Assembly: GCA_026389735.1 (NCBI GenBank)
Contig: JAPLHH010000002.1
Coordinates: 1 to 16,734 of the forward strand
Reading direction: 5' to 3'
Source of the DNA: Chloroflexota bacterium
GTDB taxonomy: Bacteria > Chloroflexota > Dehalococcoidia > GIF9 > UBA5620
Length of the DNA: 16,734 bases
The notes beneath the pieces were generated by a model. It searched no databases. It was given only the letters and a program-made list of their open reading frames with translations, and was not told the DNA's origin. Position numbers and translations under genes: made by a program. Shown here piece by piece: positions 4,316-15,154 of this stretch (position 1 is the stretch's first letter; each line of letters starts with the position of its first letter).

Positions 4316-6403
4316 CTAAATAATGCGACCAATACGTGAACCATCAGCGATAGCATCATACATGTAGCCAGGCTCCCTGTAATCGCCAATTCGATGGACC
4401 TCAGGAACCTTCCCCTCCAGGCTTTTCATGAGTTCGGCACCTGGCTGCAAGGGCAAGGCAGTTATTATGGTATCAGCTTCAAGGATCTGCCTCACACCAT
4501 CCTTGGTGGTGATGACCAGCCCCTCATCTGTTATTTCCTCGTACTTGACCTGAGCCAGCATAGTCGCCCCCTTTTTGTTCAGCCACTTAAAAAGGCGATC
4601 TGGATCGTCGGACAGCATCCCCTCTCCCAGTTTCTCAGCGGTATCCACAATGGTTACCTTTCTGCCCCGCTTAACTAGAAACTCAGCCAGCTGACAGCCC
4701 TGCAGGGCACCACCTATAATAACTACCCTCTTTCCGACAGGCATCCACAATTTCGTCAGCCGCTCCAGAGTCTTCGGTCCGAAAAACCTTAGATAGGACT
4801 TCAGTGTGCGGTGAAGCTTAGCGTTATCGACTACCTTGCGGCGGTTGATCCCAGGTATGGCTAAAATGGTAGGAGCGCCACCAGCAGCCAGTATGAGCAC
4901 ATCCGGCTTAATCTCCTCAATAATGTAGAGATTAACCTCTTCACCTAACCTTATGGTTACTCCCAGCTTGGTAAGCTGGGTTCTGAAGTAGCGAATTATG
5001 TCCAGGATACTTTCAAGTTCAACATCCTTTACCATAGCCGCCAAACGCATTAATCCGCCCAATTTAGTCTCTTTCTCATAGAGTATCACTTCATGTCCTC
5101 TTAAGGCAGTCACCCTGGCTGCTTCCATTCCTGCCGGCCCACCCCCAGCTATCAACACTTTTTTCTTCTTCTCAGCTGGTTTGATTTCGTACTCTCGCTC
5201 TCTCCCCAGAGCGGCATTAATCCGGCACCGAAGAGGCGAGTCTACGAAGGCGCGTATGTGCCAGCAGTAGTTACAGCCCGAGCATGGTGCGATGTCCTCT
5301 AGTCTCCCAGCAGCAACCTTGTTGGGCAACTCCGGGTCGGCAAACAGTCGTCTGGTCATACCGATAAAGTCCAGCTTACCCTGTCGCAGAATCTCCTCAC
5401 CGAGTTTAGGGTCAAGCCTGCAAGCAAGATAAACCGGTACCGAGACTACCTCCTTGACCGCTGCGCCGAGAGGCACTGTAATACCTTTTCCCTTACGGCT
5501 CCAGTCAAACTCTTTTACCATCAGTTCCTTTGGAAGTTCGGGGTAGAAGAACCGGTCGGGATGGAGCATACCTGCAAATTCACCGTAGCCAGCGGCTCTT
5601 ACCTGAATTGCGTCGGCACCGGCCTCTTGCAGTAGCTGCGCGAACCTTTTAGCCTCCTCAAGGGTTGTACCGTTTTCAATACCGTACTCGACGGCGTTAA
5701 AAAGGGCAGTAACCGGATAGTCTTTCCCGCAACGCCTTTTGACCTCACGTACGATATTGCACATAAACCGGGCTCTGTTCTCCAGGCTGTCACAGCCATA
5801 GGCGTCATGGCGTCTGTTCCAGAAGCGGGAAAGGAAAGCATTGATAAGGTGGTAGTGGGAACCATTTATATCCACACCGTCAAACCCAGCCTTTTGAGCC
5901 CGTTCCGCCGCCTTGGCGAACGTATCTATCAGCTCTTCCACCTCAGCAGTTAACAATTCTCTCGTCGGGGTAAATAATCCCGGCGGCAACTCATCTTTGG
6001 TAAATGCCGAAGGAGCTATCCGGTCACCCGGTCCATCAGACCACATATTTGATTGATACCAGGGTCCTGAGTGCATCAGCTGCATAAAAAACGGGCAGCC
6101 GCGCTTGTGGACCACCTTGACCAATTCACCGTAGCTGGGAATAAACTTATCATCGCTGAGATGTGCCGCGTACCACTGACGCAACGTTCCTCTGGGATAT
6201 TCAACAGAGCAGTATTCAAAAATGAGTAGGCCGACCCCGCCTTTGGCCATTGTTTCGTAGAAACCTTTCATTGTCTCACCGACAGTACCGTCCTTCTCAA
6301 TTAAGCCTGTACCCGCGGCGGTCTTTATTATCCGATTCTTTGTACGTACTCGGCCTATGTAACCCGGTTCCATTAGTTTCTCAAATCTGGCGCTACTAGC
6401 CAT
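4316..6403 (-). CDS. OYE-family 2,4-dienoyl-CoA-reductase-like flavoenzyme (FMN / Fe-S / FAD-NAD)
   Basis: 695 residues with the three-part build of FadH/BaiCD/trimethylamine-dehydrogenase relatives. It has an FMN TIM barrel (about 5-370), an Fe-S cysteine set (Cys374, Cys377, Cys380, Cys393, the last before INAALGRE), then an FAD-binding GGGPAG (420-425) and a second nucleotide site GGALQG (564-569). Such enzymes reduce C=C bonds of enoyl or dienoyl compounds with NAD(P)H. Two deviations stand out. The first cysteines are CxxCxxC rather than the common CxxCxxxC. The HGAHGYL-type catalytic segment reads NGSHYHL (180-186), with His185 where the proton-donating Tyr is expected. The start ATG has AAGGGGG seven bases upstream. 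The upstream 405-bp gap holds the structured element at 6472-6704. Exact substrate unknown. Confidence 0.9.
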   Translation of the reverse strand: MASSARFEKLMEPGYIGRVRTKNRIIKTAAGTGLIEKDGTVGETMKGFYETMAKGGVGLLIFEYCSVEYPRGTLRQWYAAHLSDDKFIPSYGELVKVVHKRGCPFFMQLMHSGPWYQSNMWSDGPGDRIAPSAFTKDELPPGLFTPTRELLTAEVEELIDTFAKAAERAQKAGFDGVDINGSHYHLINAFLSRFWNRRHDAYGCDSLENRARFMCNIVREVKRRCGKDYPVTALFNAVEYGIENGTTLEEAKRFAQLLQEAGADAIQVRAAGYGEFAGMLHPDRFFYPELPKELMVKEFDWSRKGKGITVPLGAAVKEVVSVPVYLACRLDPKLGEEILRQGKLDFIGMTRRLFADPELPNKVAAGRLEDIAPCSGCNYCWHIRAFVDSPLRCRINAALGREREYEIKPAEKKKKVLIAGGGPAGMEAARVTALRGHEVILYEKETKLGGLMRLAAMVKDVELESILDIIRYFRTQLTKLGVTIRLGEEVNLYIIEEIKPDVLILAAGGAPTILAIPGINRRKVVDNAKLHRTLKSYLRFFGPKTLERLTKLWMPVGKRVVIIGGALQGCQLAEFLVKRGRKVTIVDTAEKLGEGMLSDDPDRLFKWLNKKGATMLAQVKYEEITDEGLVITTKDGVRQILEADTIITALPLQPGAELMKSLEGKVPEVHRIGDYREPGYMYDAIADGSRIGRII

Positions 6404-6470
6404 TTATATGCCCCCTTCTTGATATGTCCGATGACGTCGACAGGTATTCATAGGGTTGAAACAGGCATAT

Positions 6471-6479
6471 TGATATAAT
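6471..6479 (+). promoter_or_regulatory. Extended -10 promoter candidate for the structured element
   Basis: TGATATAAT is a perfect extended -10 (TGn followed by TATAAT). There is no good -35 at 16-18 bp; TTGAAA at 6455-6460 is too close. A start 6-7 bases downstream falls at 6485-6486, exactly where the perfect 15-bp arm begins, so the RNA 5' end would pair with its 3' end. Because the hexamer lies in the outer arm of the inverted repeat, it may instead be part of the repeat. Confidence 0.45.
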
Positions 6480-6535
6480 GGTAATGCTAAGATGGGGTAT
6501 TTAGGGTTACCATGAGTTGGGGAGGTTAGGCATAG

Positions 6536-6571
6536 GTTGCAAGTGGCGGTTTGCCACCAAGGAGGAGCAAC
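6536..6571 (+). promoter_or_regulatory. Hairpin holding the Shine-Dalgarno of the 25-codon frame
   Basis: GTTGC (6536-6540) pairs with GCAAC (6567-6571) and inside it GTGGC (6543-6547) pairs with GCCAC (6553-6557). AAGGAGGAG (6559-6567) lies in the bulge between the two helices and touches the outer one. The start codon at 6576 follows directly. The fold could limit or time ribosome access (inference). Confidence 0.45.
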
Positions 6572-6575
6572 AATA

Positions 6576-6653
6576 ATGAAAGACCTAATCCTACTACTCA
6601 TAGTCCCCATAATATTCTGGATAATCCTACTCATTATTCAGAATACACCCTAA
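6576..6653 (+). CDS. 25-residue hydrophobic membrane peptide (putative)
   Basis: A frame too short for ordinary gene calling: M-K-D, then about 18 almost purely hydrophobic residues (LILLLIVPIIFWIILLII), then QNTP and TAA. This is one transmembrane helix with a charged N-terminus. The Shine-Dalgarno AAGGAGGAG (6559-6567) is strong and 8-10 bases from the ATG. The frame runs opposite to its neighbours and lies wholly inside the nested inverted-repeat element, whose helices include part of its coding bases and its stop codon. ATA and CTA codons dominate, unlike the flanking genes. In size and character it resembles type I toxin peptides such as Ibs or Fst, without recognisable homology. The alternative is that the hydrophobic reading is a by-product of RNA pairing, so coding is plausible rather than certain. 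Confidence 0.45.
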   Translation: MKDLILLLIVPIIFWIILLIIQNTP

Positions 6654-6690
6654 TAGAATGGCACCCTTGGAGTACCCCATCTTAGCAGTA

Positions 6691-6719
6691 TTTATCATTA
6701 TATCCTTACTTGCTGTCAG
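6691..6719 (-). promoter_or_regulatory. Possible antisense promoter into the element
   Basis: On the minus strand CTGACA (6719-6714) precedes GATAAA (6696-6691) with 17 bp between them, and a start near 6684 would fall inside the right arm. TATAAT of the right arm (6702-6697) is an alternative -10. Transcription from here would run antisense through the 25-codon frame and on towards the flavoenzyme gene at 6403. Both hexamers are imperfect. Confidence 0.3.
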
Positions 6720-6808
6720 CTGAAGATTTACACTTATCAGCGCAAAGGCACTTTCAGCATGACACTATAGCCATACCCTAAATCCTAGGCTTCGTTCTTC
6801 CCAGGCAC

Positions 6809-8062
6809 TTATTTGTATACGCCATATTCCCTGGTGAAGTCGACCATAGCCCTGACATTTTCAGGTTTTGCCTCGTCAGGTATACCTATATCGCCATTTA
6901 GTATATAGCCGCCACCCTTACCGACCACATCTATAAGACGTTTGCAATAATCCCTGACATCCTGCGGGCTGCCGATACACATTACTGCGGAAGGCATAAG
7001 CCCCATGATGCATACCTTGCCGTCCAGAACCTCCTTGGCCCGGTGCATATCAGTACGCTCAAACCAGTATATTGCCTTTCCCTTCGGTATGTCGGCGATA
7101 GTCTCCAAACGTGAAGTGCAATCCCCTTCCCACAGCACAATAGGTACAATGTTCTGGTCAATCAGCGCCAGTATCAACTTTTTCAAAGTGGGCCAGTAGA
7201 ATGTATCGAACTGCTTGGGGGACATGAACCCATCAATCCCCTTATGCAGGGGTATAAAGCACCTGGGTATGCCTAACATCTGTGCCGTCCCTATGGCAGT
7301 ATTGATTATGGCTGGCGTTATCTTATCCATGGCTTCAAGGATTTTATCAGGACGCTGGTACATATCAAGCATGACGCCTCTGGTGCCTCTTAATAAGTCC
7401 CCTATGTAGTCAAAAGGAGCCCAACCAAAGGCGCTGAACATAGGTGGAAAGCCTAGCCCGGCCATTTCTTTGTCAAACGCTGCGCCTCTGGAAATCATCT
7501 TGAAGCTCTCTTGACCAGCCCTGGCCAGCGTTTCTAGAGCCTGGGTAACTTGCGGATTGGCAAACGCCATTGGTAAAATAGCATCCATCGTCAAATAGAA
7601 AAGTCCGGGTATATAAGGCAGCATTTTCAACGGCTCCAGTGCTCCCAACACCCTTGGTATATGCGTTCTTAACATATAGTCGGTAGGGTCGGCAATGAAG
7701 GCATCGTATTCATCCGCTGTCATATACTCTCCCTCGACATACTGGTAGGTGCTGTTGGCAGAGACTCCGTGGCCAGGCCACTTAAACCGTCTATCGCCGA
7801 GCATTTCCAGCAGAGGTCCCGTAGAGACGATGGGGAAGGGGCTCAAGTACACATCAGGGTCAAAATCCACTACTGCTTTTCGGGTGGCTTCTGCCAGCTT
7901 ATCATAATCATACATGGCTTCCTGACAGGTGAGCCCAGCGTATTTGGCTGCGAAGAAGGTGCAAAATAGTGCTATGGGAACCCTGTCCGGCACCTTCAAC
8001 TGGACGGCATCATTGAATCTCTTTTCTCTTTCCTGGTAAAGCTCCTCAGGTGTTTTCGCCAT
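6809..8062 (-). CDS. UroD-family (MtaA/MtvB-like) corrinoid-linked methyltransferase
   Basis: 417 residues of the uroporphyrinogen-decarboxylase fold family, which includes methylcobamide:CoM methyltransferases and O-demethylase MTI subunits. It starts 2 bp after the stop of the corrinoid protein, and its GGAGG (8076-8072) lies inside that gene's 3' end, so translation is probably coupled. That pairing argues for methyl transfer to or from the corrinoid rather than haem synthesis. Family features are the GAP-rich middle and the C-terminal GGGYILNGDIGIP / PENVRAM segment (383-406). The zinc ligands of MtaA are not clearly conserved: the HxC segment aligns with LWEGDC (310-315) and the usual SPGCG Cys with NGDIG (389-393). 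It may use Cys315 with acidic ligands, or bind its substrate differently. A methoxylated compound is a plausible methyl donor, but this is inference. Confidence 0.85.
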   Translation of the reverse strand: MAKTPEELYQEREKRFNDAVQLKVPDRVPIALFCTFFAAKYAGLTCQEAMYDYDKLAEATRKAVVDFDPDVYLSPFPIVSTGPLLEMLGDRRFKWPGHGVSANSTYQYVEGEYMTADEYDAFIADPTDYMLRTHIPRVLGALEPLKMLPYIPGLFYLTMDAILPMAFANPQVTQALETLARAGQESFKMISRGAAFDKEMAGLGFPPMFSAFGWAPFDYIGDLLRGTRGVMLDMYQRPDKILEAMDKITPAIINTAIGTAQMLGIPRCFIPLHKGIDGFMSPKQFDTFYWPTLKKLILALIDQNIVPIVLWEGDCTSRLETIADIPKGKAIYWFERTDMHRAKEVLDGKVCIMGLMPSAVMCIGSPQDVRDYCKRLIDVVGKGGGYILNGDIGIPDEAKPENVRAMVDFTREYGVYK

Positions 8063-10060: not shown

Positions 10061-11500
10061 TCACTCTATTATCGGTATTGCCTTCCAGAAATAGCCATGG
10101 ATACCGCGAGGTTCGTCGGAATATTTCCTCCGCAAACTCATCTCCACACGCATATCGATATCAATTGCATCCGGCTCACAATCGGTAAACTCAAATACAA
10201 ATCTTCCTCCGCCGTCGAAGTCTATCATGCCGTATATTAGTGGCGGATTGACAGAAGAGGCCGTGTGATCTGCGGTATAACTGAAAAGAACAGCCCTTTT
10301 ATCAGAGAAGCAGTAATCTTCCTTCTCATCAACAGCCCCGCAGTCAGGGTTGACGCAAATCCTTTGTGGTGGATATTGGGGAGTGCCGCAATGCTTGCAC
10401 CGGGAGCCATAAAGTGCCAATATCGTCCTGCGCTCTCTCCATGTTAAAGGTAACTCTGTTTTAGCAGTTTCCTCGTCATACCCTGTATCTACGGGAAGCA
10501 AGTTACGGAAGACCAGATATTTTTCATAGATATCAAGTTCTGCCCTCCGGTCCAAGTATTTCTTAAGCCACCGCCTGTCTTTAACCTTGGTTATCTCATC
10601 AGTCACTTTGAAGAACAAAGCCTCGGCACCATTGCCATAGCTGGCTACGAGAAGATTATCTCCTGGCTTTGCCTCTTCCAGCATCGCAATAAGTAAAATT
10701 AGTGGAGAAGCCGCTCCCGTCTCCCCTATTGAACCTATCAAAGGTTGCTGAATTTGATTTGGTTGAAATCCCAAGTTTTTACATATTGTTGAGTACTGTC
10801 TTGCATCAAGGCAAGGGAAAGCCACCCTGGCGAAATCCTTAGCCTCCAGCCCATATTTTTTCATCAAACCGGAAATAGCTTCAGGGATAAATTTGGCATA
10901 ACCTTCTTCCCTAACGAATCTATTCTCTATAGTCCGTACAAACTTATCATGTTCTGCCCTGCGAAAATCAGGAAAATCACAAGTTATTGAATACGAACCC
11001 TCTAAACCAGCAATTACTCCCTTATTGCTCAAAATGAACGCAGCGGCACCGTCACCGAACGTTATTTCCTGAGCGCTACCTGGCTTGCCCAGGCGGCAGT
11101 CAGCCCCACATAATAATATATTGTCCGCACTTCTAGCTTTAACGGAGTCACAAGCAGAGAGAAGGGCAACAGTCCCAGACTTGAGGGAATCGGAAAAATC
11201 AGCGGTGCGGATGTTCTGACGAAGGTCAAGGGACGTAGCAATTATTGCCGCGGTCTCTCTCTCTCGATATGCTGCCGTGGTTGTGGCAAAATAGACACCG
11301 CCTACCTTTGCCCGATTGAATCCCTTCAGTGAATTTATAGCTGCAGCTGCAGCCATGGTGAGACTGTCTTCATCAAAATTGGCTACCGCCTTCTCTCCGG
11401 GTAGACTTGCGCTGCTTAGCCAGCCTAGAGCGTTTGAAATGGCTTTACGGTTCAATCGATACCTAGGTAGATATGCTCCACGAGCGGATATGCCTACCAT
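10061..11500 (-). CDS. HMG-CoA-synthase-like domain fused to DUF35 Zn-ribbon/OB-fold
   Basis: 479 residues. The first about 300 have the thiolase-superfamily fold of HMG-CoA synthase/KAS III: the MVGISARGAYLPRYRL start, FGDGAAAF (148-155) and SYGNGAEALFF (287-297). The C-terminus is a DUF35 module with zinc-ribbon Cys368, Cys371, Cys382 and Cys387 followed by an OB-like segment. The HMGCS catalytic triad seems absent: the Glu position is Thr74 (FATTT), the Cys position is Leu106 (SLKSGT) and the His position is Pro229 (AFPCLD). A classical acyl-Cys condensation is therefore unlikely, and the domain may scaffold or bind acyl-CoA for the thiolase encoded 22 bp downstream. In archaea separate HMGCS, DUF35 and thiolase proteins form one complex; here two of them are fused. 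The alignment is by eye. Confidence 0.85.
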   Translation of the reverse strand: MVGISARGAYLPRYRLNRKAISNALGWLSSASLPGEKAVANFDEDSLTMAAAAAINSLKGFNRAKVGGVYFATTTAAYRERETAAIIATSLDLRQNIRTADFSDSLKSGTVALLSACDSVKARSADNILLCGADCRLGKPGSAQEITFGDGAAAFILSNKGVIAGLEGSYSITCDFPDFRRAEHDKFVRTIENRFVREEGYAKFIPEAISGLMKKYGLEAKDFARVAFPCLDARQYSTICKNLGFQPNQIQQPLIGSIGETGAASPLILLIAMLEEAKPGDNLLVASYGNGAEALFFKVTDEITKVKDRRWLKKYLDRRAELDIYEKYLVFRNLLPVDTGYDEETAKTELPLTWRERRTILALYGSRCKHCGTPQYPPQRICVNPDCGAVDEKEDYCFSDKRAVLFSYTADHTASSVNPPLIYGMIDFDGGGRFVFEFTDCEPDAIDIDMRVEMSLRRKYSDEPRGIHGYFWKAIPIIE

Positions 11501-14362: not shown

Positions 14363-15154
14363 ATGCAAGATTCGAAACAAGAAACGATGAAATCACTTAC
14401 AAAGGCATTAGATATTCTAGATTTGTTTTTAGATAACCAAGGTGAGATGGCTCTATCTGGAATTGCCAAATTGTCAGGGCTAAATAAAACTACTGTTAGC
14501 CGGATTGTCTCGACATTAGTAAAGCATGGCTATTTAAAACAGAGAGAAAAAAGAGGTAAATATTCACTCGGGACAATATATCTAAGTTTTAGTGGGGTTG
14601 TCAAAAGCAAACTGCAACTCAGAAGCATAGTCATTCCTTATTTAACTAAACTAAGCCAGCAGACACATGAGTCAGTCCTTATCGCTTATGGGAATGGAAG
14701 TGAAGAAGTATTCACTGAAACATTCCAAGACACATCCCAATCAAACAGTGAAAGTATGTTAAGAATAGTCCCTGTGGAAGGAACCAGAATGCCTCTACAT
14801 AGCCCCTCCACGGGGAAAATATTACTGGCCTATATGTCTGATGAAGAATTGGAGAGATATTTTAGCAACAAGCCTCTCAAGCGCTATACACCTAACACAA
14901 TTATGAATATAAACGATATGAGAAATCATCTGATAATCGTTAAACAAGAAGGAGTAGCTTTCGATGATGAGGAATTCGCTCTTGGTATAAGGGGCGTGGC
15001 GGCAGGACTAAGAGATAGTAACGACAAGATAGTTGGCTCTATTGCCGTGGTAGCCCCTTCAGTTCGCCTGACACGTGCCAAAATGCGAGAGCTGGCACCC
15101 GATGTTAAAAGTTGCGCCGAGGAAATCTCTGGAGAGCTAGGATTCAGAGGTTAA
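14363..15154 (+). CDS. IclR-family transcriptional regulator
   Basis: 263 residues. The N-terminal winged helix-turn-helix spans about 8-72 (SLTKALDILDLF, then LSGIAKLSGLNKTTVSRIV as recognition region). The C-terminal IclR effector domain covers about 85-260, with HSPSTGKILLAY, GVAFDDEEF and GIRGVAAGLRD segments. Regulators of this family often control catabolism of aromatic and other organic acids and frequently repress themselves. It is divergent from the leftward catabolic genes and 191 bp upstream of the binding-protein gene, so both are likely targets. Its coding sequence is visibly more AT-rich than the enzyme genes, especially in the first half, which may mean a different origin. The effector is unknown. 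Confidence 0.93.
   Translation: MQDSKQETMKSLTKALDILDLFLDNQGEMALSGIAKLSGLNKTTVSRIVSTLVKHGYLKQREKRGKYSLGTIYLSFSGVVKSKLQLRSIVIPYLTKLSQQTHESVLIAYGNGSEEVFTETFQDTSQSNSESMLRIVPVEGTRMPLHSPSTGKILLAYMSDEELERYFSNKPLKRYTPNTIMNINDMRNHLIIVKQEGVAFDDEEFALGIRGVAAGLRDSNDKIVGSIAVVAPSVRLTRAKMRELAPDVKSCAEEISGELGFRG

Follow-up and report, generated by a model that had tools for sequence, protein, structure and literature searches.

Two minus-strand genes (4316-6403 and 6809-8062) of a genome that probably belongs to Chloroflexota flank a 405-nt gap with an inverted-repeat unit spanning about 225-233 bp, which we tentatively read, with a probability of roughly 0.4, as a small membrane-peptide gene inside a MITE-like unit bounded by terminal inverted repeats. 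All positions refer to the window, i.e. the whole stretch of 16,734 nucleotides that was analysed (Table 1). The likely content of the gap, as judged from the sequence, is the membrane-peptide gene, ORF1, which together with its Shine-Dalgarno sequence was absent from the earlier note on this DNA. In that note, the gap had been described as a compact plus-strand structured RNA or foldback element.

From the sequence features we infer transcription, translation and membrane insertion of the peptide, past mobility of the unit, and protection of the mRNA. Transcription would begin near position 6486, driven by an extended -10 element in the left repeat arm. With AAGGAGGA as the point of ribosome entry, translation would yield a single, very hydrophobic helix that becomes embedded in the cell membrane. 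The repeat itself would signify a MITE-like DNA unit, and the hairpin formed in the transcript would be a by-product, which may protect the short mRNA via pairing of its 5' and 3' ends. The likeliest putative activity of such a peptide would be growth arrest, as with a toxin, or modulation of the membrane, and either is possible.

Table 1. Positions of the repeat unit, of the candidate genes and signals within it, and of the adjacent genes
Feature	Position	Strand	Remarks
FadH/OYE-type oxidoreductase gene	4316-6403	minus	best NCBIfam matches, under family cut-offs
Extended -10 TGATATAAT	6471-6479	plus	predicted start ~6486
Left arm of terminal inverted repeat	6472-6499	none	GATATAATGGTAATGCTAAGATGGGGTA; pairs with 6673-6704
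TA, left end, possible target duplication	6474-6475	none	read off sequence; weak
Shine-Dalgarno AAGGAGGA	6559-6566	plus	7-base match to AAGGAGGTGA
ORF1, 25 aa, very hydrophobic, MKDLILLLIVPIIFWIILLIIQNTP	6576-6653	plus	Kyte-Doolittle 18-residue mean 3.52
13-bp hairpin within ORF1	6613-6645	plus	mean pair probability 0.97
Second mini-ORF, 21 aa, hydrophobic, MAPLEYPILAVFIIISLLAVS	6658-6723	plus	Kyte-Doolittle 2.22; tentative
Right arm of terminal inverted repeat	6673-6704	none	4 additional bases 6688-6691
TATAAT, inward-facing, opposite end	6697-6702	minus	no TG before it
TA, right end, partner of 6474-6475	6701-6702	none	read off sequence; weak
Uroporphyrinogen-decarboxylase/methyltransferase family gene	6809-8062	minus	NCBIfam scan

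Genomic context

The unit is located upstream of the oxidoreductase gene, which is transcribed away from it on the minus strand. Family scans of the window's 12 long genes (NCBIfam on 7, Pfam on 6) revealed neither a recombinase nor a reverse transcriptase, and a retron-like RNA was dropped as a candidate because of the latter result. The named relatives of the decarboxylase-family neighbour (best 120 of 7,508 relatives) belong to Chloroflexota or Dehalococcoidia in four of eight cases and to Desulfatiglandales, Thermodesulfobacteriota, Deltaproteobacteria, and Desulfobacteraceae in the other four, with a top identity of 62%. For an HMG-CoA-synthase-like neighbour (best 120 of 3,385 relatives), all five named relatives are Chloroflexota or Dehalococcoidia and the top identity is 71%. 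With 9 of 13 named relatives in these listings from Chloroflexota or Dehalococcoidia, Chloroflexota is the probable phylum of the host. The decarboxylase-family protein had no match in viral contigs.

The HMG-CoA-synthase-like protein (10061-11500, minus strand) appears to be fused to an OB-fold domain, as deduced from the Pfam domains of its relatives. Among the matches listed, its metagenome relatives include one with 99% and three with 85-88% identity, and the contigs that encode them reach 179,694 bases. A metagenome relative of the decarboxylase-family protein shares 96% identity with it and is encoded on a contig of 13,022 bases.

The terminal inverted repeat and its promoter-like elements

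The terminal inverted repeat is real and beyond chance. Its arms form 27 Watson-Crick pairs and one G-T pair, interrupted by one 4-base bulge or indel. The outer segment (6472-6484/6692-6704) consists of 13 pairs including the G-T pair, and the inner segment (6485-6502/6670-6687) of 18 pairs, in which the 15 perfect ones are extended with two G-U pairs included. The arms align with a score of 40, whereas the best of 2,000 dinucleotide shuffles scored 32; the outer helix described earlier (13 bp, 4-base bulge, 15 perfect bp) thus surpasses 2,000/2,000 shuffles and stands. When the window was divided into 252 overlapping segments of 390 nt, a score of at least 40 was reached only by this repeat and by one at 14.1-14.4 kb.

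The latter is a long imperfect inverted repeat with one gap (14135-14181/14347-14392), whose arm score of 42 was reached by none of 2,000 shuffles and which folds with z values of -5.8 on the plus strand and -4.0 on the minus strand. Its left arm lies in a divergent intergenic gap, and its right arm overlaps the start of an IclR-type regulator gene (14363-15154). It has no notable similarity to the unit described here (best local alignment score 19) and shows that such repeats arise in this window in another setting too.

A scan for direct repeats of 4-12 bases at the ends of the unit yielded only TATA/ATAT, which has 4 bases and is self-complementary. Were TA the target duplication, the empty site would have the sequence GATATC. 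Yet TA is self-complementary and turns up again in every inverted repeat that includes it, so this duplication does not independently prove an insertion. Within the 16.7-kb window there is no second copy of the unit. The arm motif has two further matches in the window, both within genes and with 3 mismatches each, and a reading of the arms as shared operators was dropped because no other promoter in the window carries the motif.

The extended -10 element reported earlier was confirmed, with the predicted start at the base of the 15-bp helix. TGNTATAAT occurs once in the window with both strands counted, namely within this element, and a two-hexamer scan of 6380-6820 detected no sigma-70 site. 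The minus-strand TATAAT at the opposite end is the mirror image of the left-arm -10 box and has neither a preceding TG nor a -35 match. As the -10 box is located inside the outer repeat, an RNA from this promoter cannot include the left outer arm or explain the outer 13 pairs. A longer RNA starting upstream could contain these pairs; there is no sign of one. The position of the box inside the repeat suggests a DNA-level feature, since a repeat at the DNA level, which could be a MITE-like unit or stem from local inverted duplication, accounts for both the outer pairs and the mirrored TATAAT.

A candidate membrane-peptide gene

Judged by Kyte-Doolittle hydropathy, the product of ORF1 is probably a single-pass membrane peptide. 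In shuffle tests, which were post hoc as the ORF had been spotted before testing, its hydrophobicity was equalled in 0/5,000 shuffles of 6472-6740, and a membrane-like mini-ORF (mean of at least 2.0) together with a Shine-Dalgarno match of at least 6 was found in 3/5,000. When the Shine-Dalgarno sequence and the ATG were kept fixed and 6579-6653 was permuted, 6,576 of 20,000 local shuffles were open for at least 18 codons; a hydropathy mean of at least 3.5 was reached by none of the 20,000 and a mean of at least 2.0 by 24. The distribution of T over codon positions 1, 2 and 3 (2/16/3) was equally extreme in 2/20,000 shuffles.

The Shine-Dalgarno sequence is predicted to be unpaired (0.3 kcal/mol to open), and the predicted cost of opening the ribosome site, 7.4 kcal/mol, lies within the range of 5.5-10.9 kcal/mol spanned by the window's 12 long genes. 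Removal of the 3' arm raises the predicted cost from 7.4 to 10.2-11.8 kcal/mol. The second mini-ORF begins 4 bases past the stop of ORF1, spans the right repeat arm, and has no Shine-Dalgarno sequence. It may be due to chance; some membrane-like mini-ORF is present in 2.2% of shuffles.

RNA folding

The whole 233-nt segment 6472-6704 folds with -90.4 kcal/mol (z -6.8) on the plus strand and with -82.4 kcal/mol (z -5.6) on the minus strand. Both strands are far better than shuffled controls (0/200 as good for each), with the plus strand being the stronger one. Among 552 tiled 233-nt segments from both strands (mean -62.3, sd 12.1), the raw energy was exceeded once, by the minus-strand segment at 2521 with -91.2, and the most stable of these segments fall within genes. 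For the interior without the outer helix, folded as 6503-6667, 6508-6657, 6516-6654, and 6523-6647, z ranged from -1.1 to -1.8 on the plus strand (11-44/300 shuffles as good) and from -0.5 to -1.3 on the minus strand (31-89/300). The interior is thus near chance, and the fold signal originates mainly from the terminal repeat. Some RNA structure may be present within the plus-strand interior, where 6503-6667 is slightly more stable than shuffles (11/300 as good). A terminal inverted repeat alone can mimic an elaborate structured RNA.

Accordingly, the compact structured RNA proposed in the earlier note was not borne out, while its alternative of a foldback element holds for the repeat, and its assignment to the plus strand for the ORF and the ribosome site. 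The 13-bp hairpin at 6613-6645 is present in the fold, and an equally long one occurred in 1/1,000 shuffles of 6503-6669. From the nested helices, 6536/6571, 6543/6557, and part of 6524/6590 were recovered, the last being partly formed with mean pair probabilities of 0.43-0.68 at 6523-6533. The bases of 6501/6653 and 6512/6601 pair elsewhere in the minimum-energy fold, and with these two of five nested helices missing the suggested three-way-junction layout was not confirmed.

The suggestion that G-U pairs identify the plus strand as the folding one is weak, as it concerns three positions, two of which lie outside the inverted repeat in helices selected on that very strand. The pair given as 6481/6595 should read 6481/6695. 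A loose alignment of the arms gives 8 plus-strand G-T against 3 A-C mismatches and extends through unrelated sequence, and the G-U strand evidence was dropped. A codon choice tuned to the fold was likewise discarded because synonymously recoded variants of the ORF fold about equally well (133/500 and 102/500 at least as stable). Rfam gave no match in the whole window at the gathering threshold and none at E up to 5 in the region 6400-6800. This agrees with the earlier statement that no known RNA class is recognisable and is equally compatible with there being no RNA at all.

Searches for homologues

The exact two-ended repeat pattern had no match in genome contigs or viral contigs, and the one-ended pattern had none in viral contigs. 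Blastn searches with the unit gave no match in phages and only one 35-base match (E 0.2) in plasmids, and tblastn with the ORF1 peptide gave none in plasmids and phages. A protein search with a 45-residue in-frame stretch returned one candidate and none at E up to 10. The peptide had no match in NCBIfam, three weak matches in Pfam and two weak matches in the PDB (best E 0.15 in both); the Pfam family of YxzE-like putative bacteriocins matched at E 0.7, which is within noise.

A search with a single-sequence covariance model, as had been proposed for related genomes, found nothing in 296 genomes, and the DNA of the unit had no match at E up to 0.001 in 297 genomes; without a known positive genome, both results are uninformative. 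At E up to 0.01, matches were obtained in 8/395 and 4/396 genomes, compared with about four expected per search, so that the first count is somewhat above and the second equal to expectation. The covariance-model search (296 genomes) and the DNA search of 396 genomes covered the same phylum. The 12 DNA matches are 19-37 bases long, and half of them lie on 6529-6568, which comprises the small hairpin and the Shine-Dalgarno sequence. Two cover the same part of apparently one gene, present in two genomes, and another coincides with the ribosome site of a different gene. Rescoring with the covariance model gave weak partial matches for two of the 12 loci (9.8 and 11.3 bits). None of the 12 continues past the short match, and all were ascribed to chance.

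The genome searches sampled the phyla to which three MAGs, titled Acidobacteria, Desulfobacteraceae, and Actinobacteria, belong. In the samples of the Acidobacteria- and Actinobacteria-titled MAG phyla, proteins matching the neighbours reached at most 52% identity, which indicates that these two sampled phyla are not close kin of the host. No homologue of the unit or of the peptide was found in these searches; as the host's own group lies outside the genomes covered, the absence means little.

Alternative explanations

The same terminal repeat, which is beyond chance, would also be expected of a MITE-like or snapback DNA element in which the ORF is incidental and which was moved by a transposase encoded elsewhere in the genome, with duplication of TA. 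A precedent exists in repeat units known from enterobacteria (PMC2759123, available in part), which measure 103-168 bp and have stem-loops, TA at their ends, and short ORFs. This explanation is unlikely, as the signal of ORF1 is too strong for an accident, the unit is present as a single copy in 16.7 kb and was not found in the genomes and contigs searched, and the TA duplication adds no independent support. A decayed inverted duplication that arose by local template switching, and that would be neither a mobile element nor a selected RNA, could be invoked in view of the second long repeat in the window (14135-14181/14347-14392), which is unlike this unit. However, 15 consecutive perfect pairs and a -10 box at the extreme end are neat for a product of chance and ORF1 would be left unexplained, which makes such an origin unlikely. 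The size and hydrophobicity of ORF1 fit the membrane-associated toxins of type I toxin-antitoxin loci (PMC8309996, available in part), in which case the minus-strand TATAAT at the right end (6702-6697) would act as an inward-facing promoter for an antisense antitoxin. The predicted RNA also has 5' and 3' ends that pair. Yet the ribosome site is predicted to be open and becomes less accessible without the 3' arm, which is the reverse of AapA as far as the available part of PMC6733600 describes it. Together with the missing cationic C-terminus of ORF1, the missing TG and -35 match of the minus-strand TATAAT, and the lack of any protein-family match of weight, this renders a type I locus decidedly unlikely. 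Highly improbable is the combination of both ideas, a mobile type I toxin-antitoxin cassette in Chloroflexota, in which promoter-bearing repeats would drive a toxin mRNA and a full-length antisense antitoxin from opposite sides, with one repeat serving transposition, promoter, and mRNA folding.

For the structured non-coding RNA of the earlier note speak the z value of -6.8 for the whole fold, the slight lead of the plus over the minus strand in every fold, and the unusual 13-bp hairpin. These observations have to be set against an interior with z values of merely -1.1 to -1.8, the two nested helices that were not predicted, the location of the -10 box within the outer helix, the coding signal of ORF1, and the lack of an Rfam match, and such an RNA is therefore very unlikely. 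The least probable reading is a control region of the oxidoreductase gene, comprising a promoter and a 5' leader or a repeat-flanked invertible promoter. The unit does lie in the gap upstream of this gene, it carries a minus-strand TATAAT at its far end, and the minus strand folds too (z -5.6); but the arm motif is not found at other promoters of the window, the arms differ by a 4-base indel, and a recombinase was not detected among the long genes. The preferred reading of a membrane-peptide gene inside a MITE-like unit has its own weak points. No homologue was found in the searches and no other copy in the window, only a TA/TATA duplication fits and mobility has no independent support, and the 13-bp hairpin within ORF1 is left unexplained. 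If ORF1 is expressed, its product would be a membrane peptide too short for the length cut-offs that gene finders commonly apply. To our knowledge, such tiny membrane-peptide genes have been little studied in this lineage.

Comparison with known systems

The unit resembles two known kinds of elements, namely miniature inverted-repeat elements with short ORFs and genes for tiny type I toxin-like membrane peptides. According to the available part of PMC8309996, membrane-associated type I toxins have fewer than 60 amino acids and one helix, and a cationic C-terminus is general among them. Like the type I toxins covered there and those of AapA/IsoA (PMC6733600) and of MsoT1 from Microcystis (PMC12390103), both also available in part, ORF1 would encode a tiny hydrophobic peptide with a strong ribosome site, and its predicted mRNA would be short with pairing 5' and 3' ends. 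Unlike these toxins, ORF1 has no cationic C-terminus, no sequence relation was found, and the minus-strand TATAAT is the one indication of an antisense RNA. In AapA (PMC6733600, same excerpt), the ribosome site is hidden by pairing of the 5' and 3' ends and becomes accessible once the 3' end is trimmed, whereas that of this unit is predicted to be open, in contrast to the Hok/AapA type. According to the accessible text of PMC12390103, Proteobacteria, Firmicutes, and Tenericutes were the only groups with known type I systems until the cyanobacterial one was described. A partial literature search retrieved no report of type I toxins in Chloroflexi or Dehalococcoid and nothing on point for MITEs in Chloroflexi or Dehalococcoidia.

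With invertons, as far as they are portrayed in the available portion of PMC11892184, the unit shares an intergenic segment and a promoter-like motif between inverted repeats; it differs in that its arms are distinguished by an indel and that the window contains no recombinase. A further parallel is offered by the enterobacterial repeat units RU-1, RU-2, and RU-3 in the part of PMC2759123 at hand. Like this unit, they are intergenic, have a size of about 100-250 bp, and combine terminal inverted repeats with a stable stem-loop, TA ends, and a short internal ORF. They are multicopy with TA duplications at their insertion sites, whereas one copy was seen here, and unlike them, this unit carries with ORF1 a reading frame that has a Shine-Dalgarno sequence and a very strong hydrophobic signal.
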